From a virus: 64,000 bases of DNA. Of the stretch, positions 3,149-47,163 are shown piece by piece. Numbering within the stretch: position 1 is the stretch's first letter; each line of letters begins with the position of its first letter. The notes under the pieces are model-generated. The model ran no database searches. It was given only the letters and a program-made list of their open reading frames with translations, and had not been told where the DNA came from. The stretch covers positions 115,991 through 179,990 of the IMG/VR virus record IMGVR_UViG_3300043395_000996; one strand, written 5' to 3'. The position numbers were made by a program, and so were the translations under genes.

Positions 3149-4762
3149 TTAAAGAGTTTCTAAACCATCAACGATAATCTTACCGTAGAACTCTGGTCTT
3201 ACGATTTTCTTAGCGTATCTAGTCATCACACCTCTTCTTGGAGTGAAGTTGATTGGGTCATAAACTAAAGGAGTCATAATCAACGGAACATATGGAGCGT
3301 AAACAGCACCTGTTTCGAAGAAGTTAGAACCTTTGAAACCTAATAAGATTACGTTTTCAGTCATATAAGGATTCTTATAAACATCGTATCTATTAGAGAT
3401 TGAACCGATGTTAGTTACACCTGCTGCGAATTGCATTGCATCCTTACCAGGATTTGCAGAGAAACCATTCATTGATTCTAAAATAGTTGCTACGTTTGGA
3501 GATACAACGATGAAGTTTGCACCACCTCTCATAGTTAATTGGTGAATCTTGTTAGATATCTTTTGTAATTTGATACCTAAAGTTTGATACCAAGTGTTCT
3601 TTGTGTAAGCACCTGCTGCTACTGCAGTTGAATCAGCTGCGAAACCAGCACCTGTCCAATCGTATCCAACTCTTGCAGACCAGTATTCAGTAGAGAATGC
3701 GTTTTGCTGTAACATCTCTAAAATTTCTAAATCAATCTCTAAAGAGATGTATTCAGATAACATTTGAGTTAATTCAGCTTCTGCATCTACAGAGTGGTAT
3801 GCGTTTAAGTCTTGCGCTAATTCAGGAGTCCAAATTGCTTTCAACTTACGAGTCTTAGCCACGATAGGCTCAGATTTCAATTCTAATTCAACTTCTGGGA
3901 TAGGTAAGTCAGCACCTCTATCTTCGAAATCACCACGAGAAATATCAGTTGGTTGTTTGTGGTATGCTAAAGTAGCACCTACAGTACCAAAAATTGTGTT
4001 AGCTGCTGCTACTTTCGCAACGAAAGTTACGTTTGTACCTTCAACAGATGTAAATTCAGGATATAAAGTGAAACCTGAACCAGATTGTGCTAAATCAAAT
4101 GCTCTAGCACCATTGAAATCAGCATCATCAGGTAATGCTACAGTCAAAGTCTTAACTTTGTCAGCTGCAAATGCTGCAGAGAACGCTGAATCAACCAAGT
4201 TGTAGTTAATATCTGATAAAGATGCAGATGCAACAGTTGCGTTTTTAGCTACTGCTGAATCGTTGATTGTGTATCCGAAACGTCCTGCTCCGTATAATCC
4301 ACCTTCAGCTGCTTGAGTAGAACCCAATTTGTTACCAGCTGGAGATAAAGAATCTTTACCGAAAGTACCGCCGTTACCGAACATTGATGAATTTTGAGCT
4401 GGTCTACCTGTATCAGTGTCAGTACCATACTTGAAATCCATATAGAAAATAAGACCTGAAGGTAAGTTCATTGGTTGAACTGAAACGAATTCTTTCGCTG
4501 CAATTGAACCGAAGATTCTTCTTACCAATGGTAAAGCTACACCAGCCCACTCTTCAGAACCTGCTGAAGTACCTGTTCTTGTAGCCTCATCTAATAATTG
4601 CTTAGCTTGGTTTTCTAACATTACTGCCATACCATGCTTGTTTGTTTCAGACTTAACGCCTTCTAACAAACCTGTTTTTTCCCACTTTGCTTTCAAACCT
4701 CTAGTTTGCTCAAGCATTAATGACTGTGGGTTTTTTCCTGTCATAATTGATTTTAAATTCAT
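3149..4762 (-). CDS. 23: major capsid protein, T4 gp23-like
   Basis: Forms the capsid hexamer lattice. At 537 residues it is close to T4 gp23 (521). Recognisable blocks include RKLKAIWTPELAQDLNAYHS followed by VDAEAELTQMLSEYISLEI (T4 RQLKAAYSIELAQDLRAVHG...), a VSVQPMNLPSGLIFYMDFKYG block near 98-118, and YAPYVPLIMTPLVYDPINF near the end. The N-terminal 59 residues look like a prohead delta peptide, with ENQAKQLLDE then ATRTG. Cleavage after Glu59 would fit the T4 prohead protease rule (L/I-x-E). It follows the scaffold gene by 31 bases and is closed by a strong terminator. Confidence 0.95.
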   Translation of the reverse strand: MNLKSIMTGKNPQSLMLEQTRGLKAKWEKTGLLEGVKSETNKHGMAVMLENQAKQLLDEATRTGTSAGSEEWAGVALPLVRRIFGSIAAKEFVSVQPMNLPSGLIFYMDFKYGTDTDTGRPAQNSSMFGNGGTFGKDSLSPAGNKLGSTQAAEGGLYGAGRFGYTINDSAVAKNATVASASLSDINYNLVDSAFSAAFAADKVKTLTVALPDDADFNGARAFDLAQSGSGFTLYPEFTSVEGTNVTFVAKVAAANTIFGTVGATLAYHKQPTDISRGDFEDRGADLPIPEVELELKSEPIVAKTRKLKAIWTPELAQDLNAYHSVDAEAELTQMLSEYISLEIDLEILEMLQQNAFSTEYWSARVGYDWTGAGFAADSTAVAAGAYTKNTWYQTLGIKLQKISNKIHQLTMRGGANFIVVSPNVATILESMNGFSANPGKDAMQFAAGVTNIGSISNRYDVYKNPYMTENVILLGFKGSNFFETGAVYAPYVPLIMTPLVYDPINFTPRRGVMTRYAKKIVRPEFYGKIIVDGLETL

Positions 4763-4793: not shown

Positions 4794-6032
4794 TTACTTA
4801 ATGATACCTGCTAATTTTCTAAATCTTTCAGAGAAATCTGCTGATTCTGCAATTACTTGCTTAGCTGCTTTTGGTGCAGTTGATTTAACTGCTTTAGAAG
4901 CGATTCCTTCAGAGATAGCTTTTTTAGCTGGTTTGTTATTTGAAGTATATTTGAAGTTCTCTGCTAATGTAGAGAATACCAATTTAACCTCTCTAACTGA
5001 TTTAGTTCTATCCAAAGTTTCAATCACTTTAACTTTTTGTTCGTTAGTCATGTTGTGTGCTCTGAATAATTTGTTTGCGAATAACAACTTAGCGTTCAAT
5101 AAGTTCACTTCGTTGATAGTCTTTTGTAATGATTTGATAGTTTTGTAAGCTTCTTCTAATTCAGCTTCTTTTTCTGATTCTTCAGCTTCGTCTACTTTCT
5201 CACCATCTTTCATATCAGCTTCCATTTCTCTTAAAATTTCTTCCAAGTCAACTTCATCTGATTCTTCTTCTTCGTTAGTTACAACAACTTTAGGTGTTTC
5301 ACCTTTATCAGTTCCAGCTTCAGAACCATCTGCTAAGTCTTCAGCGATTGCTGGTTGCTCTTCTGCAGGCATTTCTTCTTCTGAACCTTCTTCATCACCT
5401 AATTGTGCTTCTAACTCTCTGATGATAGCTTCTAAATCCATGTCATCTTCAGTTGATTCTTCTTCATCACCTGTTGGCATGTAATCTTCGCCTTCACCTT
5501 CTGATGCGAATGGGTCAGCTTCTGCTCCCATATCATCACCACCTTCTGCTGCATCTGCTGCGAAAGGATTTTCTTCTTCTGAACCTTCACCTTCTAATTC
5601 TGCCAATCTCGCTCTTAATTCTGCGATTTCTGCATCTTTAGAATCTGCTTCAGGTTCTGCTTCCATACCGAACTCATCTTCTTCGTTGATATCTGCTACT
5701 TTAGTGTAGTCAGTACCAGCTTGTTCTGGCTTACCACTATCTTTAGTTACACCTACTGATAAATCAGTATCCGCATCTAATGTTGGTGTTGCACCAGGAG
5801 TTTCGGCATATCCAGCTTCTACTTTAGAACCGATTCCTGTTGAATCCAATTCTTCATCAACTTGCTCCTCATCACCTTCCATTTCAGCTTCAGCTCTCAA
5901 CTTTTGAGTCAACATAGACTGAAGTCTTGGTGTAAAGGCTTCTTCAAGAGCAAGCTTTGCGTTAGCCAATGCAGTTTCTTTAACCGCTTTAGCATCTGCG
6001 ATTGCTTCTTTTAACAATTTTGAATTTGCCAT
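4794..6032 (-). CDS. 22: prohead core scaffold protein, T4 gp22-like
   Basis: A 412-residue, very acidic protein with long Glu/Asp runs (GDEEGSEEEMPAEEQPAIAE and similar) between a helical N-terminus (KEAIADAKAVKETALANAKL) and a basic helical C-terminus (SERFRKLAGIIK). It would form the internal core on which gp23-like protein assembles and then be degraded by the gp21-like protease. The composition, the place just before the capsid gene and the absence of catalytic motifs fit gp22, although sequence identity to T4 is low. It is longer than T4 gp22 (269) because of the acidic repeats. A roughly 119-base leader precedes it. Confidence 0.8.
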   Translation of the reverse strand: MANSKLLKEAIADAKAVKETALANAKLALEEAFTPRLQSMLTQKLRAEAEMEGDEEQVDEELDSTGIGSKVEAGYAETPGATPTLDADTDLSVGVTKDSGKPEQAGTDYTKVADINEEDEFGMEAEPEADSKDAEIAELRARLAELEGEGSEEENPFAADAAEGGDDMGAEADPFASEGEGEDYMPTGDEEESTEDDMDLEAIIRELEAQLGDEEGSEEEMPAEEQPAIAEDLADGSEAGTDKGETPKVVVTNEEEESDEVDLEEILREMEADMKDGEKVDEAEESEKEAELEEAYKTIKSLQKTINEVNLLNAKLLFANKLFRAHNMTNEQKVKVIETLDRTKSVREVKLVFSTLAENFKYTSNNKPAKKAISEGIASKAVKSTAPKAAKQVIAESADFSERFRKLAGIIK

Positions 6033-7513: not shown

Positions 7514-8104
7514 TTAGTTTAATTCAATTATAATTTCTCTCATCAAGTCTTGTGCTTTGCAGAATTTTCCACATTCTTCTGCAACTTTAGCCCATTGTTT
7601 TGATTCGTTCATTGGTGCCATAAATGCTCCATGTGTAGATGGATTGGAAACAAAATCCCATCCAACTAATTCAAAATCTTCCTGAACCATTACAGTACCA
7701 TCGGAAAGTTCTTTTACTGAACCCAATCCTCTCGATGAAATCCCTAAACGAATGTTGTTTTTTAATAATTCTTTTAAGATGTTACCAGATGGAGTTGAAA
7801 GAATTTCCACTACACCAACTACGTCATCCCCATCCCATCCAATTTCTCTGATGTTATGTGATACGTTTTTTAAGTTGATTACGGGAGAATCTGGATGGTC
7901 TAATTCACCCAATGCTCTTCTTTCTTTAATAAGTTGCTCATACTTCTTACACTCTCTTTCCAAAATTTCTTTTGGATATCTTCTGTGGTTTTGATTTGGA
8001 GCACCAGCTCTTTGAAGAATACCCTTAACTAAATAAGTTCCGTTTTCTTCTTGCTGAAGTTTTGCTTCAAACAAATGAGTTTCTATTAATAATCCCTTAT
8101 TCAT
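7514..8104 (-). CDS. 21: prohead core protease, T4 gp21-like
   Basis: Serine protease that matures the prohead by cutting scaffold, capsid and internal proteins. 196 residues, close to T4 gp21 (212). Visible motifs: NHRRYPKEILERE near 39, RRALGELDHPDSP with the likely catalytic His70, NIRLGISSRGLGS with the likely nucleophile Ser123 or Ser124, and FELVGWDFVSNPSTHGA near 144-160. It is encoded between the portal side genes and the scaffold, as in T4. Its ATG directly abuts the stop of the preceding gene. Confidence 0.9.
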   Translation of the reverse strand: MNKGLLIETHLFEAKLQQEENGTYLVKGILQRAGAPNQNHRRYPKEILERECKKYEQLIKERRALGELDHPDSPVINLKNVSHNIREIGWDGDDVVGVVEILSTPSGNILKELLKNNIRLGISSRGLGSVKELSDGTVMVQEDFELVGWDFVSNPSTHGAFMAPMNESKQWAKVAEECGKFCKAQDLMREIIIELN

Positions 8105-12495: not shown

Positions 12496-13263
12496 TTACC
12501 ACTTTCTACAACTCCAATATCTTGCTTTCCATCTTGGACCTGGAGTATCACAATTATGTCTTGCTCTGAATGATTTTCTTCTTTCTGGGTTAGATTTTTT
12601 AATTCTCATATTAGGGTCTCCAAAGTTTACCTTAACAACATTTCCTTTGTCATTCTTAACATATACTTTGAATTTTTTAACATCACCTTGCATTGGTTTT
12701 CCCAACTTAACACTTCTACCCTGATATTCAGCTTCGTACACACAATCGCAACTAGCTTCTGCTAAATATTGAGTGTATTCTCTCATAAACTGAATGAATT
12801 CTTTCATATCCTCTCCGTTCTCAACATCATATTCAATCGGTTCGTTTTCTTCAGCTTCTTTGATTGGAACACAATTGGGTACTTCTTTACCATCTTTCTT
12901 TTTTGTACCAACCATTTCGTATCCTTTCCAACAAGGATTATCCATTTCTTTTACAATATTTGATAATTTCATTTCTTTTTCATTTACATATGGAGAATTA
13001 ACTGGCTCATATCCTCTATTTACTTTGTCCTTTTTTGGATTGTATGGTTCTACTTTACCAGGATTTCTATCTTTTTCTTCATCATCAAAATCCGTTGTAT
13101 CCGTATCTGCAATATTTCCCATAAAATCGCCATACATTGAACCAGCATGGTGTGCATTAAAATCAGTTTCAGCTGGTGTATCATACTTACCTATCCCATC
13201 TAACGATTTTTGATTTGTTGTAGGAACTGCTTCCTTTAATGGTACTAAATCTACTAATTTCAT
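12496..13263 (-). CDS. hypothetical protein with conserved T4-like C-terminal domain
   Basis: 255 residues from the ATG at 13263 (MKLVDLVPLKEAVPTT). The longer TTG frame overlaps the terminase end and is rejected. The N-terminal half is acidic and low in complexity. The C-terminal about 65 residues (GDVKKFKVYVKNDKGNVVKV, then NFGDPNMRIKKSNPERRKSF and RARHNCDTPGPRWKARYWSC) form a block I have seen in many T4-like marine phages, possibly DUF5872. The Cys/Arg-rich ending suggests nucleic acid or metal binding. It sits between terminase and portal with its own late-promoter-like core. Function unknown. Confidence 0.75.
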   Translation of the reverse strand: MKLVDLVPLKEAVPTTNQKSLDGIGKYDTPAETDFNAHHAGSMYGDFMGNIADTDTTDFDDEEKDRNPGKVEPYNPKKDKVNRGYEPVNSPYVNEKEMKLSNIVKEMDNPCWKGYEMVGTKKKDGKEVPNCVPIKEAEENEPIEYDVENGEDMKEFIQFMREYTQYLAEASCDCVYEAEYQGRSVKLGKPMQGDVKKFKVYVKNDKGNVVKVNFGDPNMRIKKSNPERRKSFRARHNCDTPGPRWKARYWSCRKW

Positions 13264-13282
13264 AATTCTTATAGTTTCAACA

Positions 13283-13291
13283 TATAAATAT
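13283..13291 (-). promoter_or_regulatory. late-promoter-like core ATATTTATA
   Basis: ATATTTATA on the minus strand, 19 nt before the ATG at 13263, in the gap after the terminase stop. Confidence 0.5.
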
Positions 13292-13298
13292 ATAAAAA

Positions 13299-14906
13299 TT
13301 AACGAAGTAACCAAGTTAGGTTTTCTTTTTCACCTCTACCTATTTCCATTTCATATGGATTTTGTTGTTGCCAGTTAGAAGTATATACTCCTTCATTGTT
13401 TTGAATAGTTGTAGAATTTAACATACTTCTTGTCAAATCGATACCTTCTTGTCTTAATCTCAATGCGGTGTTTCTTACCCACAATCCAATACCCAATGCC
13501 ATTGTAAGGTCATCATTATATCCTTTCATAGCTTCTGCTCTACCACCATTCCAAATAAATGTAAATAATTCATCTATTAATCTATTAGAACGAATTAGAA
13601 TGTCTTTATCTCTAAAATATGTATCCAATGCTGATATAATAAGAGGACGAGTTTTGGTTGTAGTCGAAAATCCTGCAACCATGCTTTTTTCTTGTCTATA
13701 ATATTTGTTAGACATTTGTCTTTCAACATCCACATATTGTAAATCATTACTCATATAGAATAGATTAGGATATCCCCTATCAATTACTTGCTGAATACAT
13801 GCCCAACCTACGTTTGAGTTTTCAATTACCAATAATGCGTTATTATATTCGGTTGCCAATGATGTTAGAAAATTTCCAAAATCTTTTGTATCGATTTTAC
13901 CTCTATATTCTCCAACCTGCGATGAATCTTCAATATCAATAATTTGAGCAGTGGAATAATCACTTCCATCGCCCCTCGCCACGTCGGCGGATATCATATA
14001 TTGTCTATTGTAATTAGGATATTCCCATATCCATAAGTTATTATCAAATCCTCTCTTCTCTACCGGCTCCATAACGTATGTATCTTTATACCACGTTAAT
14101 AATGCCGGGTCGATTACAGTAGCACCAGAACCAACGAAGTCACAATCACATTCTTGTGCGGCTCCCTTAACTCCCAAAATACGAGTTTGTTCATCTCTCC
14201 ACGCTTGATTTCTTTCAGGGTGTACAGTCCAATGTAGATTGATACAATTGAATCCGTTTGTTCCACTTTCACCATCTACCCACATTTTATGAAACCAGTT
14301 ACCAATACCATTTGGTGTAGATAATACAATTGCCGAACCACCCGTTGATAAGGTAGATTGTGCTGATAACCAAATTTCATCGATATCTCTAATGAATGCC
14401 GCCTCATCCACAACCAATAGAGATAGGGCTTCAGAACGACCTGCATCAGGTGAACTTGCGATTGCTTTTACTTGCGAACCATTTTTTAATTTAAGTGATA
14501 GTTTGTTATCTTCAGCTGCTGCCGTTGAACCATCTCTTAACCAAACGGGAAGTAAATCGTGCATAACCCTTACTTTCTCTACAAGGTTTTTTGCAACAGT
14601 TACTTTAGTTGCAATAACCAAAGCATTGAAGTCTTGGTTAAATAACATCTTCCAAAGTATAAAGCCCGCCGATAGGGTTGATAAACCTAACTGACGGGAT
14701 TTAAGAATAATGTTAAATCTATTATCTTTAAAATCATCTAAACAATTCTCCTGAAATGGATATAAGTGAAAAGGTATTTTTCCTCTCGTTGGATGCTGAA
14801 TCACACAATACTTTTTCATAAAGTATATTGGGTCTAAAGCACACTTCTTATACTCATCAGCGATGATTTCTTTTAAATTCTTTTTTGGTTGCCCTTGTAT
14901 AGACAT
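13299..14906 (-). CDS. 17: terminase large subunit, T4 gp17-like
   Basis: Packaging motor ATPase and headful nuclease. The start is the ATG at 14906, which overlaps the preceding stop as TAATG; this gives 535 residues. ATPase motifs: a deviant Walker A KSRQLGLST at 69-77 (the usual Lys before Thr is Leu, a common variant in this family), Walker B LLVVDEA at 163-169, and coupling motif STPNG at 196-200. RNase H-like nuclease acids include Asp308 (ISADVARGDGSD) and Glu362 (LLVIENSN). It follows the membrane module, and its 3' end is separated from the next gene by a late-promoter-like core. Confidence 0.95.
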   Translation of the reverse strand: MSIQGQPKKNLKEIIADEYKKCALDPIYFMKKYCVIQHPTRGKIPFHLYPFQENCLDDFKDNRFNIILKSRQLGLSTLSAGFILWKMLFNQDFNALVIATKVTVAKNLVEKVRVMHDLLPVWLRDGSTAAAEDNKLSLKLKNGSQVKAIASSPDAGRSEALSLLVVDEAAFIRDIDEIWLSAQSTLSTGGSAIVLSTPNGIGNWFHKMWVDGESGTNGFNCINLHWTVHPERNQAWRDEQTRILGVKGAAQECDCDFVGSGATVIDPALLTWYKDTYVMEPVEKRGFDNNLWIWEYPNYNRQYMISADVARGDGSDYSTAQIIDIEDSSQVGEYRGKIDTKDFGNFLTSLATEYNNALLVIENSNVGWACIQQVIDRGYPNLFYMSNDLQYVDVERQMSNKYYRQEKSMVAGFSTTTKTRPLIISALDTYFRDKDILIRSNRLIDELFTFIWNGGRAEAMKGYNDDLTMALGIGLWVRNTALRLRQEGIDLTRSMLNSTTIQNNEGVYTSNWQQQNPYEMEIGRGEKENLTWLLR

Positions 14907-15556
14907 TACTTTTTTAATTTGATTTTCCAATATACTCCACCTCTAATATATGGTGTTAGATACCCATTTGTACCATCGGTTGTTTTATTATTAACACCAA
15001 TACCCAAATTGTATATTTTATTAGAGTTAGAATTTACCATTACACCAATGCCAATAAAATTTACATAATCGGCTTGATTAAATCCACCTTCAAATCCAGC
15101 ATAAACTTTACGTTTAAATGGTTCTGGTATTATGAGTGTATCTATTTTAGGTGTAATTTTGGTTGTATATTTTCTACCTATTATTTTATTTTTACTTATT
15201 GTATCAATGATTGTAATTGAACCCTGTTGTTTATCAAATTTATAGGTGTTTGTAAATACATTCACATTATTCAAATATTGATTTATGATAGAATTTGTAT
15301 CTACTTTTATTTGAATCGTATCATGTACTGCGTATGGTATTGGTTTTTCGACTTCTACCGGTACTTCTACATCATAAGGCACTTCCACTTCAATTGTATC
15401 GTGAATTGGATGTAAAGATTGACCATCAACTTTAACTATTTTTTCAATAGTTTTGTTTCTATTAGGCATTACACCAAATGGGTCAAAAGATACCAATGAT
15501 AATATAATCACTAATACAACAATGATAATATGTCTTATGTCAAATAGTTTCTTCAT
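14906..15556 (-). CDS. membrane-anchored protein with C-terminal barrel-like domain
   Basis: 216 residues: a short cytoplasmic start, one membrane helix (about 10-28), then a Pro/Val-rich periplasmic stretch (EVEVPYDVEVPVEVEKPIPY). The C-terminal about 70 residues are an amphipathic beta segment with alternating aromatics (VYAGFEGGFNQADYVNFIGI... to GGVYWKIKLKK), resembling a small outer-membrane-type sheet. The layout is similar to the DUF6808-type proteins of Bacteroidota phages. It is third in an overlapping membrane module just before terminase and could span the envelope during lysis. No direct evidence of function. Confidence 0.6.
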   Translation of the reverse strand: MKKLFDIRHIIIVVLVIILSLVSFDPFGVMPNRNKTIEKIVKVDGQSLHPIHDTIEVEVPYDVEVPVEVEKPIPYAVHDTIQIKVDTNSIINQYLNNVNVFTNTYKFDKQQGSITIIDTISKNKIIGRKYTTKITPKIDTLIIPEPFKRKVYAGFEGGFNQADYVNFIGIGVMVNSNSNKIYNLGIGVNNKTTDGTNGYLTPYIRGGVYWKIKLKK

Positions 15557-16948: not shown

Positions 16949-19900
16949 TTATCTTCCAAACTTAAAAATTCCTAAAATTTGATTTAACGGAGCGAATGTG
17001 CCCGTTAATTTATAAGTATTTCCTTTATAAAAGAATACCAATCCTTCGTTTGGAACTAACTTATCAAATCCACCAATAGCATTTAATCTAGCTAATTCTT
17101 TTTCTAATCTTTTAATTTGAGATTCGCTACCACCACTTCTAATATCAGATATTGATGATTCTAATGATTTTCTAATAGATTGTAATGCTGAATCAGGTTG
17201 AGCAGTTAATACTGAACCCATAAATGATAATACTTCTGCACCTACTCCCAAAAAGATATCTTCAAATTTACGAAGATTTCCTTTCATAATTTTATCTTTT
17301 GCATCTTTATCTACTCCTTCTGCCCATTTTCTAGCATCCTCATCTGCAATTGATTTAATCGTGAATGATTTATTGTCAAACGCCCATCTTCTTGCCAATC
17401 CTTCTTTTTCCAATTGTGCAAGATTCTTTTTAGATTTGTTTACAAAATTCATCCACCAAGCATAGTGATAATCAGCTACACCATCTTTATCACCTAAATT
17501 AAATTCAGATTGTAATTTAGATAGCATACTATTAAATTTGCCTTTTTGAGAACTTAATTTCTCATCTTTTGGTAATTTAGTAATTGGTGGTCCCTGTATA
17601 GTATATTTTGATTGAACATCCGCATTTACCTTTTTAATCATCGATGCCAATTTACTTTCTGCTCCTTTTACTCCACCAATTGCATTTCCTTTTTCATCAT
17701 ATTCTACAACGTTGTGGAACACTAATAGATTTTGTCCATAAGGAATTACATTTGCATTTTCAGGGTAAATTACTTCTAAATTACAAAATGCCGAACCATC
17801 TTTGAATATACTTTGTCTTTCCTTTTCACCCAATCCACTTATTGCAGAATATAAATCTTTCATTGCGAAATTATATGCATCAGCTAAAGCACCTCTACCA
17901 TTGAATTTATCTGCTAATGCTGCTGCATCTAATGCGTTTTCTCCACTATTTGCCAAATGTCCTTTGTTACGAGCCGCAATCAATCTACCATTTTTCCAAC
18001 TTATTGCTAATGCCTGTCCATCGGTTTTTTCTCTAACTACTCCTAAATTACCATCCAAAGCGTTGTTGATAATTTTTTTCAAATCACCAAATGTAAGATT
18101 CATTGAAATATCAAACGGATGATTCATATGCCCATACGCCCCACCTTCCATTATCAATTCTTTTGATTGATTTACGGATTCATTTATAATTGAACCACCA
18201 TTGGTAGTTATGAAGTTTGCTATATCTGCTTCATTTTTTGCAACTACTACTCTCGGATACTTTTGTTTAAGTTTTTGTATGGTTTTTTCAGTATCCTCTT
18301 TATTTTCCATATCAAAATCCCAGCTTCCAACTTTAACATTTGTTTTCAAAAGCCAAGGTACAACTAAAATACTTTCAATTTTAATTTGATTTAAAACTAC
18401 TTCGTTCCAATCCGAATCGTAGTATAAACCATTTGAATTTAGGTATTTATCCTGAAACTCTTTTTTCTTACTCAACATATATCTATCGGCTGCATCAATG
18501 TATTTCTTAATAAATTCAGCTTTTTCTTTATTTGTAGCTGGATTATCATACATATTTTTCTTCCAATCTTCTTTGTATGGTTTTAATTCGGGTGCAAAAT
18601 TAAATACTACATCTTGCTCTCTTCCCAATCCCGAAATTATAGTACCAGGATTTACCCATCTCATTCCTTTTTTATCAGGCTCTGTCCATAAGTCCATTAT
18701 ACTTTGTGCTAATACAGTGCCTGATAATGCTACAATGATACCACCCTTTGTATGCATTCCTTTACCTTGAACAAGCTTTCCCCATTTAGTAGTTTTTGTA
18801 AAAGTAGAAATAGATTTTTGTTTTCCTTGCAATGCATCTACTTGTGGTAAATGTTCAATATCAGTAGCATGTAATGAAGTTGTTCGTATTGGTTCAACTA
18901 TTTTTTTAATAATATTAAGTGAAAGGGGCAATTTACCCAACATACATTTATCATATGCGCTATCTTCCCATTTAACTTCATTTAAGGATTCTTTAAAAGC
19001 AGATGGAGTTTTTATCTTTCTCCAACCTCCTGTAAATCTGAATATTCTAGCAGGTATTGGAAGCGTTGAACCTATTGGAAACTTATGAAAATATTTACTA
19101 TCAATGTGAATTATCTTTGTTATAAATTGATTTGTTTTATTATCAGCACCTATTAATTCTACTTCTATTGGTACTACAACTCCGTTTATTTTAAGATTTC
19201 CAGCATATAATTGACCCTTTGTAAATGCTTCGTTTGTAATTGTTTTAGAAGATGTTTGAAAATCACCTTTTCTCATTATAGTTTTGGCAATAACTTTATT
19301 AGCCATTTTTACAAATGGAATATTGATATCACTTCTACTATCTTTTACTACAATTTGATTGTATTTATCTAATAGATTTAAAAATTCTTTTTTGTGTTTT
19401 GATGCCAATCTTTTAAAAAAGCCAGTTAATTCTGGTTCTGAAATATCTTTACCATTTCTAGCATCGTTTACTCTATCGAAAAAATGTTTACTAAATTCTA
19501 TATCAGCGGGTGATAATTCTCTATCGGCATATCTCTCTACACTATCCAAATCAGCTTTAGCCATCTCTTCGGTTGTTCTGAATGTGGTTGCTTGCTTACC
19601 ATTGATAGTTGGCATTCCGTGGTCATCTTTACCAATATCTTTAACTTGTACTTTTTTGTTTTTGAATTTACCCATCAAAACAACATCACCTTTATCAACA
19701 TCTACATTAACATCTTCGTAAATATGTGAGTTTAATTTACCAAAATCTCTTAAAAGAATTCCGGCTGCTGCATTTGCTTCGTTTTCTACATCTGAACCCG
19801 TAGCACCATCTTCTACTCCACCAATATATCCACTTTGTCTTTGTTTAAGATGAACTAATTCGTGTGCCAATGTTCTTAAAATATCGGGTAAACTTCTATT

Positions 19901-22249
19901 CGTAACATATACATAAATGTTATCAGTATGTGGGTCATATCCACCAAATGATTTGTATAATGTTGCAAATTCATTATCTTTAACTAATTGAATGTTAAAT
20001 GGCATTTTTTCCAACTCCAATCTATGGGTTGCAAATTTAATGAATTCACCTATGGTTTGAGCTTTACTTTTTTTTTGTGCCAAATCTTCTCTCAACAAAT
20101 CCATTGCTGCATTTTTAGCATCCATTTCCGGTTTGTTCTTTTTATATGATTCGATAGATGCCAACATTTGTTCATCTGACATTTTGAATGTTGCCATTCT
20201 CTCACCTATTTTCTTTATTAGGTTCATCATCATATTATGTGGATTAGGTTGGGTTGAATCTACACCTTCCGCAAGTCCGCCCGTTACAATACTCAATGCA
20301 GCACCACCTACGCCGGCTTGAGCCGCATTAGCTCCTACTGCTTCAAATGCAACGTGCTTAACCATATCCTTACCCAAATGTGCGCCAAATCCCCATGCAC
20401 CGTGAGTAAATGCGCTTGTTGCACCATGTAGTGCCGCCTGTCCTATCGTACTTGCAGTAGCTCCGGCGGTTGTAGCCGCTCCGTATGCCGCTGTTCCAGC
20501 TCCAGCTGTCATCATACTAGCACACATAATAGCGGCATCTTTTGCAGTACCAATTAAACCTTTCTTTTGCTCTTGATGTTCATACCAAGACTTTTTAGCT
20601 AATGCCAATTCGTGTTTAGATAAATCTTCTCTGAATACGGGTTCTTTTGTAGTTTTTGGTCTACCTCTCCAATCGGTTGCTTGTACGGGATTACCATTTT
20701 CATCGTGAACATCATGCCCATGCTTATCTTTTTTATAAACAGGCACTTCTTTCATTTTAGAACCCCATCCTTCAGCTGCACTTCCACTTTGTGTATAATC
20801 AGACCAATGTGCTTTTTTGCCCGTTTTAGGGTCTTTTATTGTTCCTAATTTACCCGATGTTGCAAAAGAATATATTCCTTTGCCAAATTCTTTATATTGG
20901 TCAACTTTATGTGCAATCACATGCCCAACTGCTTTACCAACCGCATGTAATTTCTTACCTGTCCAATCGTTTAATTTTGAATACCAACCCTTTCTCATTT
21001 CTGATTCGGGATTATTTGCATCATCAGCCGCTTTTCTATCCTCTTCAGATAAACCAGCTTTTGCTTTATGTAATTTTTCTTTTACTTCGGATGCTGCTCC
21101 ACCTTTTTCTTTTTTCTCTGCCGAAGATTTTAATTCTGCTCCACTTAATTTTTGCTCAGGCGGTGGCGCTTGTTGACCCGGTTGCTCTCCACCATTTGGA
21201 GTTCCATCTATTTTACCCTGTGCGGTTTGTCCTTTTTTAACAGGTTGACCTGGCTGTGCTGGCTTAGCTGATTGAGTTGCCGCTTTTCCCTTTGGTTCAT
21301 TAACCGGTGCATCTTTTGGCCCTACTAATTTAGCGGCTTGAATATGTGCTTCGTGGTCTTTTGGTAATCTCAATGCACCTCTTACAGTAATTTTCTTTTT
21401 CTTACCATCTTTGGAAGTATAACTGATTTCCTTATCCATTATAGGATTTGGTTCTTCTTCTAAAAAATATTCTTCTATGAAATTATCTGCTTCAAATACC
21501 AATTTTGCTATTTGTTCAGCGATAGGGTCATAATAATCATCTTTATTAGAGTATTCTATTTCGTGTCTTGTAGGATGTGGTTCTGGTCTCATTTCTGATG
21601 ATGGGTTTGTATTATTACTTTCCTCAACCGAACCCGTTGGTGCACCATTGATATATCCATTTGGTAAATTTAACCCAACTCCGATTCCACCAGGAAATCC
21701 TTCATTTAACTTTTTTGTAATCATTTTAAAAATATCTTTATCAAATTTTGGATATGCTTTTGTGAAGAATTTTTTTGCAGTTTCTTCATCGCCACCCAAT
21801 CCCTTACGGACATCCGTTCCACTAATAGGATTTGATTCAGGTGGTACTATATAAGTATAACCAATCTCATCGTAACCATATCCAGCTTTACCATTATATG
21901 GTTTAAAGTATTTACCTTGCAATCTATTTGCATCTTTCTCACCTACTGCTGCAATATATTGAGTAGTTTTACCATCAAATTTAGAAAGTACTTCTTTTGG
22001 AGAGTATGGGTTTGCTACTTGTACAATTTTGCTTGGCGGAATACCAAACATTTTACCCATTATGATAACCTTTTCTTTGAAATTAAATGGAGATTTATCG
22101 TTATCCGTTTTATTAGACGTAGCAATATAAACATTATCCTTACCGAATTTAGATACTAACTTCTCATAAGCGGCATAATGCCCTTTATGAAAGGGTTGAA
22201 AACGGCCCGAATATATTACAACGGTCTTTGTTACTTTTGGTTTATCCAC
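16949..22249 (-). CDS. giant multidomain protein: NMNAT-like + metallopeptidase + ligase-like
   Basis: 1766 residues from a GTG start. Domains in order: nucleotidyltransferase of the NadR/NMNAT type at 8-180 (GRFQPFHKGH with HKGH 21-24; SGTDVRK 143-149). A Pro/Gln/Lys linker follows at about 210-400, then an Ala/Gly-rich hydrophobic stretch at about 570-660. A zinc metallopeptidase (HELVH 796-800, likely third ligand Glu822 or Glu824) and a conserved phage block around 915-1000 come next. The C-terminal 1365-1766 is an ATP/NAD-dependent ligase-like nucleotidyltransferase (KTDG 1408-1411, LEVIYPE with Glu1492, NEGLVF 1734-1739, YKLTG with Lys1747). It sits among head genes; I infer a virion protein, perhaps injected. 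Not split by stops. Confidence 0.8.
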   Translation of the reverse strand: MDKPKVTKTVVIYSGRFQPFHKGHYAAYEKLVSKFGKDNVYIATSNKTDNDKSPFNFKEKVIIMGKMFGIPPSKIVQVANPYSPKEVLSKFDGKTTQYIAAVGEKDANRLQGKYFKPYNGKAGYGYDEIGYTYIVPPESNPISGTDVRKGLGGDEETAKKFFTKAYPKFDKDIFKMITKKLNEGFPGGIGVGLNLPNGYINGAPTGSVEESNNTNPSSEMRPEPHPTRHEIEYSNKDDYYDPIAEQIAKLVFEADNFIEEYFLEEEPNPIMDKEISYTSKDGKKKKITVRGALRLPKDHEAHIQAAKLVGPKDAPVNEPKGKAATQSAKPAQPGQPVKKGQTAQGKIDGTPNGGEQPGQQAPPPEQKLSGAELKSSAEKKEKGGAASEVKEKLHKAKAGLSEEDRKAADDANNPESEMRKGWYSKLNDWTGKKLHAVGKAVGHVIAHKVDQYKEFGKGIYSFATSGKLGTIKDPKTGKKAHWSDYTQSGSAAEGWGSKMKEVPVYKKDKHGHDVHDENGNPVQATDWRGRPKTTKEPVFREDLSKHELALAKKSWYEHQEQKKGLIGTAKDAAIMCASMMTAGAGTAAYGAATTAGATASTIGQAALHGATSAFTHGAWGFGAHLGKDMVKHVAFEAVGANAAQAGVGGAALSIVTGGLAEGVDSTQPNPHNMMMNLIKKIGERMATFKMSDEQMLASIESYKKNKPEMDAKNAAMDLLREDLAQKKSKAQTIGEFIKFATHRLELEKMPFNIQLVKDNEFATLYKSFGGYDPHTDNIYVYVTNRSLPDILRTLAHELVHLKQRQSGYIGGVEDGATGSDVENEANAAAGILLRDFGKLNSHIYEDVNVDVDKGDVVLMGKFKNKKVQVKDIGKDDHGMPTINGKQATTFRTTEEMAKADLDSVERYADRELSPADIEFSKHFFDRVNDARNGKDISEPELTGFFKRLASKHKKEFLNLLDKYNQIVVKDSRSDINIPFVKMANKVIAKTIMRKGDFQTSSKTITNEAFTKGQLYAGNLKINGVVVPIEVELIGADNKTNQFITKIIHIDSKYFHKFPIGSTLPIPARIFRFTGGWRKIKTPSAFKESLNEVKWEDSAYDKCMLGKLPLSLNIIKKIVEPIRTTSLHATDIEHLPQVDALQGKQKSISTFTKTTKWGKLVQGKGMHTKGGIIVALSGTVLAQSIMDLWTEPDKKGMRWVNPGTIISGLGREQDVVFNFAPELKPYKEDWKKNMYDNPATNKEKAEFIKKYIDAADRYMLSKKKEFQDKYLNSNGLYYDSDWNEVVLNQIKIESILVVPWLLKTNVKVGSWDFDMENKEDTEKTIQKLKQKYPRVVVAKNEADIANFITTNGGSIINESVNQSKELIMEGGAYGHMNHPFDISMNLTFGDLKKIINNALDGNLGVVREKTDGQALAISWKNGRLIAARNKGHLANSGENALDAAALADKFNGRGALADAYNFAMKDLYSAISGLGEKERQSIFKDGSAFCNLEVIYPENANVIPYGQNLLVFHNVVEYDEKGNAIGGVKGAESKLASMIKKVNADVQSKYTIQGPPITKLPKDEKLSSQKGKFNSMLSKLQSEFNLGDKDGVADYHYAWWMNFVNKSKKNLAQLEKEGLARRWAFDNKSFTIKSIADEDARKWAEGVDKDAKDKIMKGNLRKFEDIFLGVGAEVLSFMGSVLTAQPDSALQSIRKSLESSISDIRSGGSESQIKRLEKELARLNAIGGFDKLVPNEGLVFFYKGNTYKLTGTFAPLNQILGIFKFGR

Positions 22250-22271: not shown

Positions 22272-22280
22272 TATAAATAT
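22272..22280 (-). promoter_or_regulatory. late-promoter-like core ATATTTATA
   Basis: ATATTTATA on the minus strand, 22 nt before the GTG of the giant protein gene. It lies just beyond the end of the 39-codon gene that closes the carbohydrate locus. Confidence 0.5.
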
Positions 22281-37489: not shown

Positions 37490-38901
37490 TATATACCAAC
37501 ATTTATTATTCTAATATTTTTATCTAATTTTTTAACACCATGTTCAATAAATTCTAAAGTAGATAATCCATCGTTTTTTAATAAATTATCATCATTACTA
37601 ACTTCATTTACAAATCTCAATTGATTCCATCTCGTACATTCATTTTTCCATTTATTATCAACAAATCCATTTTCTTCGTGTTTTAACGATTGAAATCTAC
37701 ATTTTTTTCTAAATGGTATTAAGTGATTTATTGATTGCGGTTCATTTGATTCGACAATTTCACAAGCTACAATTTCTGCATAATTTTTATTTCCAGATAA
37801 ATCTTTTAATCTATATTCATCTATTTTAGATGCATCATAATACATTTTTAATGATGTAGATTTTTGAATAGTTTCATCTAATTCAGTTCCTAATTTGTAA
37901 ATTTTATCATCAGATAAAACATCATCAAAATATGCGAATGATTTAAAATATCCTTTAAAAAAATTTGGAATTTTAATTCTTTCGGGATTTCCCACTCCAA
38001 TATAACAATTATTAACTATTTTATAATCTATTAAAAATTTTCGTATTTGAGCCGTTTCCCCTATATAAATTCCGTCTTGATAAACTTTTATTACTTTATC
38101 ATTTGCATCATATACAATTGTTATGTTTGTTAAATAATTTGGCTTTATTTCTGAATTTACAAAATGAGAATTCAGTTTATAATCAAATGCGCAAAAATTA
38201 TATCTATGAAAAGATGTATATGATATAGCAAAATCATATCCGGGTATACTGAATATAGTAAACTCATCGGATTCTTTTTTATGGTCTAATTTTAAATCAT
38301 CTGGGCAAAATGTAACGGATATTGTAAAATGATAATTGAAATCTATTACATTTTTTATTTTTATATGAGAGTCGATTCCATTAAGTTTTAATAATTTTCT
38401 ATTACCTATATTTTTAAAAATTTTAGAATCCAAAGATACATTATTCTTTTTGCATCTTAACAATAAATCATCATCTTCATACCCCCATCCCCAATACTTA
38501 TTTGAATAACCATCTATATTTTCAAAAATTTCGGTTGGAAACATAGTTACGCCACCAAAATATGTATCAAATATTTCTCTGTTTTTTTCTCCTTGAGAAT
38601 AATAAAAATTAGTAGCTAAATGTAATGGAATATGTGAATATGTGTAATCCACACTTAATGGAATCATATCCACATCGTGAAATACTACATAATCACATTT
38701 TAATTTTTTTGCATAAGTAAATCCAATATTAAGAAGCATACCACGATTGAATAATTTAGCATCATCTTGTTCAACTATTATTAATTCATAATCGATACGA
38801 CCATTATTGAAATAATTAACCAATGCTTGTTTAAATACTTCTAAATGTTCGTATCGATTTCTATATGGTACAATAATCCCTAATTTGTGATTACTACTCA
38901 T
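37489..38901 (-). CDS. GT7 galactosyltransferase fused to LamG-like domain, paralogue
   Basis: 470 residues, same layout as its neighbour: VPYRNRYEHL (11-20), HDVDM (75-79), FGGVTMFP (115-122), WGWGYEDDD (137-145), then a LamG-like domain (TNITIVYDANDKVIKVYQDG, then GYFKSFAYFDDVL) and a final PFRKKCRFQSL block. The DxD and WGWGxEDDD motifs are intact, so it should be active. It is AT-richer and more diverged than the other copy, consistent with an old duplication. It overlaps the upstream small gene by 8 bases. Confidence 0.85.
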   Translation of the reverse strand: MSSNHKLGIIVPYRNRYEHLEVFKQALVNYFNNGRIDYELIIVEQDDAKLFNRGMLLNIGFTYAKKLKCDYVVFHDVDMIPLSVDYTYSHIPLHLATNFYYSQGEKNREIFDTYFGGVTMFPTEIFENIDGYSNKYWGWGYEDDDLLLRCKKNNVSLDSKIFKNIGNRKLLKLNGIDSHIKIKNVIDFNYHFTISVTFCPDDLKLDHKKESDEFTIFSIPGYDFAISYTSFHRYNFCAFDYKLNSHFVNSEIKPNYLTNITIVYDANDKVIKVYQDGIYIGETAQIRKFLIDYKIVNNCYIGVGNPERIKIPNFFKGYFKSFAYFDDVLSDDKIYKLGTELDETIQKSTSLKMYYDASKIDEYRLKDLSGNKNYAEIVACEIVESNEPQSINHLIPFRKKCRFQSLKHEENGFVDNKWKNECTRWNQLRFVNEVSNDDNLLKNDGLSTLEFIEHGVKKLDKNIRIINVGI

Positions 38902-41729: not shown

Positions 41730-43277
41730 TTAATTAATTGGTAATGAACTACCATCGCATTTAATTGCATCATATAATGTAGCACCATCCCAATACCTAA
41801 TCCATGCTCCATCTGAATAATATCCGAAACCGGGTGAGCCTGTTCCATTTGAATTCAAATGAAATTCGGTTGCCAATTTCCAACTACTATCATTCGGTCC
41901 TATGTAATAGGTACTTGTTGTAGAATTACATGCCGTTTGTGCATCGCCATCTACCCCCAAATATACTTCAGGATAATATACATACCCACAATCTGTTGAA
42001 TTTGTTTGAATATCTACCCAAATAATACCACAATTTCCATCATAATATCTTTGTTGTTTTGTAGTTCCACTACAACGATAATCGCTTGGAGATGTACCAG
42101 CTGGTCCATATCCTGGACATGCTACTGGGCAATTTTGTCTAGATGAAAATGGTTGAACAGTATTACCTGAATACGGCTTACCAACCGCAACGTATCTTCC
42201 ATTATATGATATCCACCCAATAATACTTCCCATTCCATATGAACTAAATGCTACAGACGTAAATGTACTTGCATTTTCAAAAGTAGCACCTTGTGGCATT
42301 TCTACTTCAATACCACTACCAATATCACATCCTCCATTTGTTCCGCTTGGTTCACCCCCATCATTTACACTTTTAAATCTAACTGATAGTAAATTTGGAG
42401 CAGGTGGTAGATTGAATGTTATTTCATTGAAACTTACAACATTTCCAGCATTATCTGCTAAAAAAGGTATATATGAACCATTTGCCAAATTGTATATATA
42501 ATCACCGATTGCTCTTTGAGTTGCATCTGTATTTAAATACCAATAATATCCAGCCCCACTACCTCCACTAGCAGTTGCAACTCTAATGTATCCTGAACCA
42601 GCATATCCTCCACCCGATTGAACTGTTCCTGTCAATGATGGGTAATTACAACTAATTGCAAATGAATATAAATTTTGAGTATTGCCAACACTATCTCTAA
42701 TTTGTATCATCCATGCGCCGTTTGATAATATTGCACCCGTAGTACCCGTACCGCTTATCCAATTAGAATACGATGAATCAGGTTCAGATTCTAATTTATA
42801 TCTAAAGCTATATGGTGCTCCACTACCACCACTATACGATGAAACATTTATATAACCTTTATTTGGTGCTTGAGTTTGACAACCATATGTTGTAGATGCT
42901 GATAAATATAATGTACACGTTCCGTTTGCATTTGCATATGCTTGTCCTTCTGAATTAAAATTTGCATCACCACTTGCCAATGAGTTTGCATTTGCTTGTG
43001 AAATATATGAAGTATAAGTTTTTGAATAAGTAACACTACTTGCGGTATATCCAGCTGAACAATTGTTTCTTGTAAACGTACCACTTCTTGTTGCTGTCCA
43101 ATATTGAGATGATTTACCTCTAAATTCTAACATTTGTAAATCATTAGTACCATCGGTTGTATATGAAACCGCATATGCAGTTCCTGCTGCAGCTAAATCT
43201 ATTTGAGTACCAGATGCAATATTTCTATCGGTATTAAATAGATTCATTGATATTTCGCCAGTATTAGGAATTGCCAT
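41730..43277 (-). CDS. tail adhesin with DUF5977 and SprB-like repeats
   Basis: 515 residues. The start MAIPNTGEISMNLFNTDRNI is shared, in my recollection, by tail proteins of Bacteroidota phages. Residues about 67-121 match DUF5977 (FTRNNCSAGYTASSVTYSKT, then GQAYANANGTC). Two SprB-like repeats follow (about 133-205 and 213-290: GGSGAPYSFRYKL..., GGSGAGYYWYLNT...; each ends in a NGxW/NGSY, D-x-x-GN strand). A Cys-rich C-terminal region follows. These are Bacteroidota surface-adhesin modules. Probably the receptor-binding tip; it overlaps the S74 fibre gene by one base. Confidence 0.75.
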   Translation of the reverse strand: MAIPNTGEISMNLFNTDRNIASGTQIDLAAAGTAYAVSYTTDGTNDLQMLEFRGKSSQYWTATRSGTFTRNNCSAGYTASSVTYSKTYTSYISQANANSLASGDANFNSEGQAYANANGTCTLYLSASTTYGCQTQAPNKGYINVSSYSGGSGAPYSFRYKLESEPDSSYSNWISGTGTTGAILSNGAWMIQIRDSVGNTQNLYSFAISCNYPSLTGTVQSGGGYAGSGYIRVATASGGSGAGYYWYLNTDATQRAIGDYIYNLANGSYIPFLADNAGNVVSFNEITFNLPPAPNLLSVRFKSVNDGGEPSGTNGGCDIGSGIEVEMPQGATFENASTFTSVAFSSYGMGSIIGWISYNGRYVAVGKPYSGNTVQPFSSRQNCPVACPGYGPAGTSPSDYRCSGTTKQQRYYDGNCGIIWVDIQTNSTDCGYVYYPEVYLGVDGDAQTACNSTTSTYYIGPNDSSWKLATEFHLNSNGTGSPGFGYYSDGAWIRYWDGATLYDAIKCDGSSLPIN

Positions 43278-46200
43278 TATTTATTTTTTAATTCGTTTAT
43301 TTCGTTTTTTAATTCTTTTATAGCTTCAATTAAAAGTGGAACTACTTTTTCATATCTAACAGCTAAATATCCATCTTTTCTCTCAACAACAACTTCGGGT
43401 AAAACTTCTTTTATTTGTTGTGCGATAACGCCAACATCATGCTTTTTAACTAAAAGATTTGCATCAGGGTCATCTCCAATATGTTCTTGCATATATTCTT
43501 CAGTCCAATCAAATTCTACACCATTTAATTTATCAATTTTCTCCAATGCATTTTCAATAGGAATAATATTTTCTTTTAATCTTTCATCCGATGATGCATA
43601 TGCTATGATATTTCCTGTAGCTGATAAATCTCCTCCAATTTTAACATATGCTCCACTAAATGTACTTCTATCAATTCTAAAATATTTATCGGTTGCATTA
43701 ACTACTTGAAATCCTTTATCGGTAATTTCAGTTGCTTCTACCGATGAACCCAATGAAACATTTGAAGCGGAGCTACTTTTTGAATAAAATTGAGTAGTAG
43801 CAGTTGTATTACTATATAGAGTTCTATTCCAAACCAATCTTGCATAATATGTGCCAGATGTTGGTGCTGAAAATGCTATTGGATTTGTTGCAGCTGCTAT
43901 TGAAACTGTTCCTGCACTACTTATACCACCACTACTAATTGTACCATATCCGAGTATATTATTGAATCCGGCATCCGATGCTATTTGCCAAGCTACACCA
44001 ACATATAAATATCCACTCCATCCACCAGGGGTAGTTGCAACCCCACCAACTGCTGACATCGATATTGTTCCACTATATGTACCTCCGGCAGGTACACTAA
44101 ATGAAAAAGATGTACCATATAAAGATTGAGAACCTATATTTGATACCGCATCTGACCAAGAAAAGAAATTATAACTAGCAAATGGTATGCTTATACTATT
44201 ACCTGCTCCCAAATTCGTTAAATCACCTGCTCTTATTGTTAATTTTGGATTACCAGATGTATCATTTACAGCAATCAATGGTGATGGTGAAAATATTAAT
44301 CTACTATATCCACTACCATCTGGTGGTGAAGATAATTTATCAGGATTAATATTCCATCCACCAATTGTTCCTTGCGTAAATGTTGCAGTTTTACCTGTAA
44401 AATTCAATGCAGAAATATGAGAAGCATCTAAAGTATTTGCAACAACTTTACCCGTTGTAATAGAGTTATCATCTATATATGTGGCGTTTACACTATTCAA
44501 TGTTGATAATGTGCCCAATCCACTAACCTTTGTATTTGGAACAGTAACACCAGGTTGTAAAGTCAATGATGTTGCGGTTATTCCACCATTAATAGCTAAC
44601 GTACTACCATCAAATGTTAATTTATCACCTAATGAAAATATATTAGTAGAACCCGATTTAAAATAGAATGGTGTATTAGAATTATTATATGTACCAGTTC
44701 CAACATATATTGCTTTATTAGTACCATCCAATGTTATACCACCACTACCTACTTTTAAAACATTTGAAATATACCCATTTGCTCCTGCTATGACAGGTGA
44801 TATTATACTATCATTACTAATCAATGTACCACCATTGTATGAACCATTTGCTATACTATCCGCAATTGATTTTGCATTATTATATGCTACAGATGCCGAT
44901 AATGCTGCGTTTGAACCGGCAATCGAAGCTGCTGCTGAACCTGATGAAACTGCATTTGAACCGATAGTATTTGCATAAGTTTGAGTTGCCGCATTACCAC
45001 CTGTTACATTTATTGTTCCATTAACAGTCAGTGCACTACCATTCCAAAGTAACTGGTCTTTTAGTGAAAATTTGCCAGAACTATCCAAATAAACCGATGT
45101 ATCTGTATTATTGTAATTACCTACTCCTATGTATATTTTACGAGTTGTAGTTCTTGCATCTAAATTTATTTGCTGTGCAGATGTATCGCCAACTGTAAAT
45201 AATTCCTTTATGTATCCAACTTGCCCACCAATCGCAGGAGAATAAATTACAGTATCTCCTATAAATGAACCACTAAATTGACCATTTGCTAATTGTTGAA
45301 CTTTGGATAATGATGATGATAATATTAATACATTTGAAGCACTTACAGATGAACTTAATGATGTAATCGAAGATGATACTGAACCACTCAATGTTACAAT
45401 AGTTCCACTAACCGATGAACTTACATTTGTTAAACTGCCACTAATAGAACCACTCGTTACAACAATAGTTCCACTAATAGAAGATGATACGGCATATAGT
45501 TCTGCTAATGATGATGATTGAGATGCGCTTATAAAAATTAATGTTCCACCTAAATTATTATTACCACCGGTAAATAATGCAGATTGTGTTACGGCAACCG
45601 GCACATAGTTATTATTTACATCATAAAATTCAAAATTGAATTCATATGTTTCATTACCAATTACAGTTGGCATAGATGTTACAAATTCAATTTCGGATGG
45701 AGAAAACGCACTATCTTGTGTCAATTTTAAACTAACATTTCCTAAATGCCATTCGTTTTGTGATTGTGAGAAATATAAACTAGCCGTTGGCTCTGCTTTA
45801 GGTAAACTAAATTGAATTATTTGGTCTTTTAAATTTTTAGTAGGTGTTATACCATTTAAAGTTCCAATTAAATATTCACCATTATTAGAACCACTAATAT
45901 AAATTTCCAAATCACTTTCGGTTGATGCAGAATAAAAAGCATCCAATCCCAATTCATATACACTAACATCGGATAAATTCAAAGATGAACTATATTTGAA
46001 TTTACCAGCTCCATTTAATTTAACACCATTATCAATACGGCTTGATGTTAATTCAGTAGTTACACCATCTACAATCCATAATTTTTCTAAAGTTTCCGAT
46101 GTGAATAATCCACCATTACCAACTACACTACCACTCAACTCATAGGTTGATAATAATTCCTTTGATTCAACTAAAATATCTTGTATTAAATCGGAATCGG

Positions 46201-46983: not shown

Positions 46984-47163
46984 ATGAAATACGCAATGTT
47001 ACAAATAAAAAAAGAAACCCACGAACTTCTCAAAAATTATTGTGAAGAACATGGGTTTAAGATGGGAAGTTTAGTAGAAAACTTAATTAAGAAACACGTT
47101 GGTGTAACTAAACCTCAAGCGGGTGTGTTAAGAGCTGACAAGGTTAAAAGTCAATCTTACTAA
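46984..47163 (+). CDS. ribbon-helix-helix-like small DNA-binding protein
   Basis: 59 residues, on the opposite strand to everything else in the window. The first 39 residues fit an Arc/CopG-type fold: a beta strand MKYAMLQIKKE, helix THELLKNYCEEHG, a GFKMGS turn, then helix LVENLIKKHV. A basic tail follows (KPQAGVLRADKVKSQSY). Its last 20 bases overlap, antisense, the end of the Mre11-Rad50 gene. It faces away from the fibre gene across a short divergent promoter region, a typical place for an autoregulated repressor. DNA binding is inferred from the pattern only. Confidence 0.65.
   Translation: MKYAMLQIKKETHELLKNYCEEHGFKMGSLVENLIKKHVGVTKPQAGVLRADKVKSQSY

Follow-up and report, generated by a model that had tools for sequence, protein, structure and literature searches.

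Introduction

Polyvalent proteins, very large chains of unrelated enzyme domains that occur in phages and conjugative elements and are shuffled between relatives, are one of the described systems closest to the 1766-residue protein studied here, which is encoded on a 64,000-nucleotide stretch of DNA from an uncultured T4-like phage (IMG/VR record IMGVR_UViG_3300043395_000996, positions 115,991 to 179,990; hereafter the window). According to Iyer et al. 2017 (PMC5512222) they occur in portal-terminase phages, commonly include a zincin metallopeptidase and carry ParB-like and RelE-fold cargo; processing by the embedded zincins is proposed there, and prohead proteases appear in its references only. 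A second system is the set of internal head proteins of T4, Alt and IPI-III, single units trimmed at the N-terminus at L/I-x-E↓A/G/S signals (the arrow marks the cut). T4 gp21 cleaves after L/I-X-E, and the internal proteins enter the prohead via a 10-residue capsid-targeting peptide (PMC9026906). A third is found in cyanophages, where genes for DUF6267 and a cytidyltransferase are neighbours in many records and S-PM2 encodes a DUF6267 + CTP_transf_like fusion (S-PM2d138).

The window protein shares features with each of them. Like polyvalent proteins, it belongs to a family of very large, shuffled multi-enzyme chains in a portal-terminase phage, with a zincin in 37 of 78 complete relatives and with ParB-like and candidate RelE-fold cargo. 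It differs in its invariant pair of NMNAT-like and ligase-like ends, for which the passages of PMC5512222 consulted describe no precedent, and in carrying head-protease signals at module borders, which point to cutting in the prohead and not by the zincin. With Alt and IPI-III it shares these signals, a cognate gp21-type protease, basic predicted products and N-termini resembling targeting peptides, the last in distant relatives and stand-alone modules; unlike them, it lacks such a peptide itself, and one chain would yield several enzymes. As in the cyanophage pair (S-PM2d138, T4-GC 71/190), a KxDG-type domain accompanies a HIGH nucleotidyltransferase, neighbouring or fused, although the order in S-PM2 is reversed, no modules lie between, and the profiles were not united. 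From the sequence we infer that the protein is packaged in the head as a polyprotein, cut by the prohead protease and ejected with the DNA, a reading to which we give a probability of roughly 0.62; enzyme activity is presumed for each of its catalytic domains.

Results

The open reading frame (ORF) was confirmed on the minus strand, from 22249 to 16949, as a single copy in its 180-kb virus record. Its GTG start is common to a subclade of relatives. The whole ORF, its two ends and the predicted cut sites are as follows.

16949..22249 (-), whole ORF, 1766 residues, GTG at 22249
21701..22249 (-), N-domain, residues 1-183, HIGH-superfamily nucleotidyltransferase, NMNAT-like (GRFQPFHKGH, SGTDVR)
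16949..18145 (-), C-domain, residues 1369-1766, RNA-ligase-like covalent nucleotidyltransferase (motifs I, III, IV, V and fold model)
21698..21709 (-), predicted site LNE↓G, after E183, directly past the N-domain (motif scan)
20264..20275 (-), predicted site LAE↓G, after E661 (motif scan)
18176..18187 (-), predicted site INE↓S, after E1357 (motif scan)
18143..18154 (-), predicted site IME↓G, after E1368, at the C-domain start (motif scan)

The N-domain carries the HxGH motif as GRFQPFHKGH (residues 15-24) and matched Pfam PF01467 CTP_transf_like (E 6.6e-6) and phrog_395 (E 5.1e-12). Nicotinamide mononucleotide (NMN) adenylyltransferases (NMNATs) were its sole PDB matches (best E 0.005) and NMNAT models ranked first in NCBIfam, far under the cut-off (25.7 vs 127 bits). 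Both motifs that mark NMNATs, HxGH and ISxTxxR, are present, and conservation over 93 unique N-domains is 96-100% at GRFQPF, His24, Thr145 and Arg148. Since the Pfam and phrog matches and this conservation agree while NCBIfam scores stay under cut-off, membership in the HIGH superfamily is firm from sequence, and NMN as the substrate is a guess. The domain resembles NadM (archaeal-type NMNAT) and NadR in combining GRFQPFHKGH with SGT(D/E)xR and in its best PDB and NCBIfam matches; it differs in its low NCBIfam scores and in having no Nudix or kinase partner. No NadV was found in the 180-kb record, which is possibly incomplete, and NAD salvage via NadV was set aside with that reservation. A second small HIGH-motif protein (154 residues, GYFNPVHRGH) is encoded in the same genome outside the window (G000 37560-38024, minus strand).

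The C-domain contains, in order, motif I EKTDGQ (K1408; KTDG at residues 1408-1411), AARNK (R1427), motif III NLEVIYP (E1492), motif IV EGLVF (E1735) and motif V YKLTG (K1747). Residues K1408, D1410, G1411, R1427, E1492, E1735, G1736 and K1747 do not vary among the 163 unique C-domains. Sequence-profile searches of Pfam and PDB gave no relevant match, and no curated ligase family matched. An AlphaFold2 model (pLDDT 85, pTM 0.81) had T4 RNA ligase 1 as its best PDB fold match (E 0.039), and the top 43 PDB fold matches were all RNA/DNA ligases or capping enzymes. Motifs and predicted fold together place the domain in the covalent nucleotidyltransferase (ligase/capping) superfamily. It shares with T4 Rnl1/Rnl2 and other covalent nucleotidyltransferases the ordered motifs I, III, IV and V and the invariant lysine nucleophile. 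Unlike Rnl1/Rnl2, it has ~240 largely helical residues between motifs III and IV, its chain stops ~16 residues past motif V, too soon for an oligonucleotide-binding (OB) domain to follow, and it is without a sequence match in Pfam or PDB. Searches with PF09414, PF01068 and PF01653 gave no second, conventional ligase in the genome.

In a library of viral protein models searched with Foldseek, the C-domain model matched phage "cytidyltransferase-like" proteins at E-values down to 1e-4, among them the S-PM2 protein (6.8e-5). Identity with DUF6267 by profile was tried and failed although the folds are alike (hhalign probability 1%, E 0.053); because the profile comparison failed, the link to DUF6267 rests on fold and on the shared pairing.

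These results bear on an earlier, sequence-only reading of this DNA, which had described a 1766-residue ORF with an NMNAT-like N-terminus, a HELVH peptidase and a KxDG ligase-like C-terminus. The ORF and all three motifs are present and conserved at exact coordinates, none of the motifs being a chance resemblance, and both terminal assignments hold at superfamily level, the first by PF01467, phrog_395 and the NMNAT structures, the second by invariant motifs and the top 43 fold matches. Profile searches, named there as a possible refutation, supported the N-domain (PF01467) and gave no sequence match for the C-domain, which was placed by motifs and fold instead.

IMG/VR scans with the whole protein as query recovered 40 loci, and the C-domain profile matched at least 582 stretches. 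The 78 complete C-domain ORFs served as the sample for pairing, module and site counts. Both ends lay on one chain in 74 of them, and in two of the remaining four the N-domain was on an adjacent gene. The middle varied in length and in module order: KGD was present in 65 ORFs, LPGG in 39, the zincin in 37, DUF5661 in 15, m894 in 13, m1014 in 12, the ParB-like module in 5 and m1110 in 4. The smallest form, a 639-residue protein of Microcystis phage Mel-JY01, consists of the N- and C-domain only and reads IIAE↓GG where its C-domain starts; the scans also gave a further group, 42-47% identical to Mel-JY01. Modules were also found alone in other T4-like phages. The pairing of the ends is obligate and the modules are shuffled between relatives. 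Flavobacterium phage immuto encodes a 907-residue mosaic (L042:2674-5397) with a Pol-beta-like stretch (by eye), a HIGH-type motif and an HExxH peptidase; it has no C-domain match.

The window protein has only the four L/I-x-E↓A/G/S sites listed above, none of them within a recognised module, and the C-domain start reads [LI]xE↓G in 153 of 158 unique C-domains. Across the 78 complete ORFs, linkers held 290 sites where 94 were expected (a threefold enrichment), and module cores were depleted (23 vs 83 expected). Among 23 non-redundant representatives, 5 of 83 sites fell in cores; randomly drawn glutamates gave a mean of 36 and a minimum of 20, and 0 of 1000 trials were as low as 5. The motif [LI]xE[AGS] was the most enriched in linkers (2.45x). 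With other P1' residues the enrichment was at most 1.59x; when D, Q, K or N took the P1 position the value was 0.45-0.70x, for the reversed motif it was 0.92x, and control ORFs of the same genome gave 1.37x for the signal.

The phage encodes its own candidate for the cutter, together with the head proteins on which such an enzyme would act.

7514..8104 (-), T4 gp21-type head maturation protease, proposed cutter (phrog_207, E 6e-53)
3149..4762 (-), major capsid protein (phrog_138, 8.9e-74)
4794..6032 (-), probable prohead scaffold, 412 residues (assigned by position and site density only)

The protease carries an N-terminal site of its own, HLFE↓A. The capsid protein has LLDE↓ATRT at residue 59, a gp23-type maturation site that aligned with the sites of Mel-JY01 and LR756508 in an alignment that also took in immuto; T4 gp23 is cut nearby, at residue 65 (PMC9958956). 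Beside the capsid gene, the scaffold candidate contains five [LI]xE↓[AGS] sites and is denser in them than anything else in the window. In the head-gene region of Mel-JY01, a gene annotated as ribosomal protein S21 (L041:20863-21090) separates those for the protease and the capsid protein.

Between the two ends the window protein carries the following segments.

21632..21700 (-), LPGG module, residues 184-206 (in 39 of 78 relatives)
20270..20527 (-), Ala/Gly-rich hydrophobic stretch, residues ~575-660 (translation, by eye)
19715..20071 (-), zincin metallopeptidase module, residues 727-845 (HELVH 796-800, E822 conserved)
19577..19702 (-), KGD module, residues 850-891 (in 65 of 78 relatives)
19247..19561 (-), m894 module, residues 897-1001, RegB/RelE-like endoribonuclease candidate (weak Pfam match in relatives)
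18989..19222 (-), m1014 module, residues 1010-1087, Tudor/SH3-like barrel candidate (model and fold matches)
18200..18931 (-), m1110 module, residues 1107-1350, possible ADP-ribosyltransferase (ART; motifs only)

Both the zinc peptidase (HELVH, residues 796-800) and the hydrophobic Ala/Gly stretch (residues ~575-660) had been noticed from the letters alone and were found between the ends. The HExxH motif is invariant in 36 peptidase modules and all catalytic residues are present; the match to the phrog_87 metallo-protease reached E 0.018 only. Pfam REGB_T4 matched 2 of 10 m894 members (best 3.5e-4) and left the window copy unmatched; m894 also stands alone in other T4-like phages. Matches to m1014, mostly Tudor domains, dominated a fold search with a mixed-domain model, and among the 50 matches listed there was no RelE match for m894. 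In m1110 the pattern H - SxS - WNE, to be compared with the R/H - STS - E triad, is invariant; the ART reading was confirmed neither by profile nor among the 50 fold matches listed. Alone, m1110 forms a gene of ~300 residues in the marine contigs L226, L229, L230, L231 and L211; several of these genes begin with a targeting-like peptide (MIKLKELLLE↓A), and the L211 copy lies beside a C-domain gene.

The zincin suggests a different course of events, in which a classical polyvalent protein would be packaged and injected whole and only then split by its own peptidase. Its full set of catalytic residues and its position between the ends fit such a course, and embedded zincins have been proposed for autoproteolysis of such proteins (Iyer et al. 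2017, PMC5512222). The module is, however, absent from 41 of the 78 complete relatives while L/I-x-E signals persist family-wide; self-cleavage by the zincin was therefore rejected as a general mechanism, and the zincin appears dispensable for processing in general. Because it is also a small stand-alone gene in Synechococcus phages, it may have a substrate of its own. We consider this course unlikely.

The ORF lies upstream of the genes for the terminase large subunit, portal, head protease and major capsid protein.

13299..14930 (-), terminase large subunit (context; phrog_2, E 7.3e-47)
22272..22279 (-), TATTTATA element, probable late promoter core, 30 bp upstream of the GTG

Matches to terminase and portal, and to the head maturation protease and major head protein, confirmed the head module. 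The terminase is closest to that of Flavobacterium phage immuto (53.5%), followed by that of Microcystis phage Mel-JY01 (52.9%). Within the window, 10 of 13 minus-strand copies of TATTTATA precede a gene start by no more than 120 bp, and the element was also seen upstream of relatives' genes; the late promoter core of this phage looks like TATTTATA rather than the TATAAATA of T4. The head-module location and late-type promoter core of the sequence-only reading were thereby both recovered. PADLOC defence families gave no match. Six loci were found in metagenome-assembled genome (MAG) contigs of mixed taxa; because these are probably co-binned phage, no host was called.

This setting also bears on the possibility that the protein works outside virions, as an intracellular bifunctional enzyme joining an NMNAT to an NAD- or ATP-dependent ligase in replication, with the middle modules regulatory. 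The cyanophage DUF6267 + cytidyltransferase pair, encoded in the replication region and, in S-PM2, close to primase-helicase and MazG, would suit such a role. The window gene, in contrast, is in the head module just upstream of the terminase and behind a late-type TATTTATA element; prohead-protease signals lie between its modules; and no NadV, the partner of NadM in every NadM phage surveyed (PMC9503650), was found in its 180-kb record. We regard this role as improbable, to about the same degree as splitting by the zincin. Least probable is a scaffold or structural head protein with decayed enzyme domains, chopped like gp22, which the head-module position and several predicted cleavage sites would allow but against which speak two essentially invariant active sites (163 C-domains, 93 N-domains) and the presence of another gene, immediately next to that of the capsid protein, which is scaffold-like and has the densest sites.

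Many distant relatives of the window protein, and modules that stand alone, begin like T4 internal proteins. The N-terminus of T4 IpII, checked for comparison, reads MKTYQEFIAE↓A; cyanophage cytidyltransferases begin MKNFHQFITE↓A and MKSFLNFLFE↓A, and stand-alone m894, m1110 and zincin genes begin MIKLKDILFE↓S, MIKLKELLLE↓A and MNYKQFLRE↓S. Many distant family members have an N-terminus like MKGLAKFLVETILGE↓A immediately before the N-domain. Of 71 N-termini in the family, 35 had a site within residues 4-33, compared with 8.7% of background ORFs. Mass spectrometry identified a cytidylyltransferase in virions of cyanophage S-CREM2 (PMC10665884). Read from an internal ATG, the gene between portal and terminase (12496-13314, minus strand) would begin with a capsid-targeting peptide like those of T4, MKLVDLVPLKE↓AVPT; with two further L/I-x-E sites, this gene is a candidate for a second packaged protein.

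Two other window genes may be mentioned. A 1047-residue ORF (47144-50287, minus strand) joins a calcineurin-type phosphoesterase (residues 5-191) to an SMC/Rad50-type ATPase on one chain; the T4 equivalents, gp47 and gp46, are separate proteins. A 1199-residue protein (43277-46876, minus strand) ends in an S74 endosialidase-chaperone (Pfam 1.6e-16) and is probably a self-cleaving tail fibre.

Discussion

We propose that the late-expressed polyprotein enters the prohead core, where the phage's own gp21-type protease would cut at L/I-x-E↓A/G/S between folded modules. Cutting at the four sites would release an NMNAT-like enzyme (residues 1-183, 20.6 kDa); a mostly low-complexity and hydrophobic piece (184-661, 50.8 kDa); a piece made of several effector modules, namely the zincin, the RegB-like and Tudor-like ones and perhaps an ART (662-1357, 79.0 kDa); an 11-residue peptide between E1357 and the C-domain; and an RNA-ligase-like nucleotidyltransferase (1369-1766, 43.7 kDa). 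These predicted products are basic (isoelectric points 8.5-9.5). Once packaged, they would leave the head together with the DNA and act at the very start of infection, within its first minutes. Most likely, the constant end pair would make good what host defence has damaged, by sealing cleaved RNA again and replenishing NAD, and the exchangeable middle modules would attack or reprogramme the host. That this is a true capsid polyprotein, whose lineages swap effectors as signal-flanked modules and keep the NMNAT-like/RNA-ligase-like end pair, is to us an even bet.

Several points weigh against packaging and cutting in the prohead. The main gap is at the N-terminus: the window protein and its subclade have no targeting peptide there, and no start codon for a longer N-terminus with such a peptide was found when the upstream frame was checked. 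The L/I-x-E signal is so short that it occurs by chance in most large proteins, and the linker enrichment may reflect modules that were fused along with their old targeting peptides. C-domain fold-match E-values are individually weak (0.039 at best), and several middle-module assignments are motifs only. The S-CREM2 authors caution that co-purification could explain their detection (PMC10665884), and no virion proteomics for Mel-JY01 or immuto phages was found in the open-access literature.

The sequence-only reading had suggested a protein that is packaged, injected with the DNA and separated by its own proteolysis. Its first part is supported indirectly, by the sites at module borders, the targeting peptides of distant relatives and stand-alone modules, and the cyanophage virion detection. 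Separation by its own zincin is not supported: the peptidase is absent in 41 of 78 relatives, and the signals persist and fit the phage's head maturation protease.

Within the open-access literature, the union of the polyvalent kind of protein with the T4 internal-head mechanism, framed by NMNAT-like and ligase-like ends, appears to be new, a provisional judgement. The paired enzyme is abundant, with the IMG/VR stretches counted above and, as DUF6267 + cytidyltransferase, hundreds of cyanophage records. If the proposal is true, tailed phages process an enzyme polyprotein by their head protease, as some RNA viruses process theirs; the protease signal would be a readable address label for the injected effectors of uncultured T4-like phages, and one could test whether the paired enzyme serves as a repair or counter-defence kit carried in the virion.
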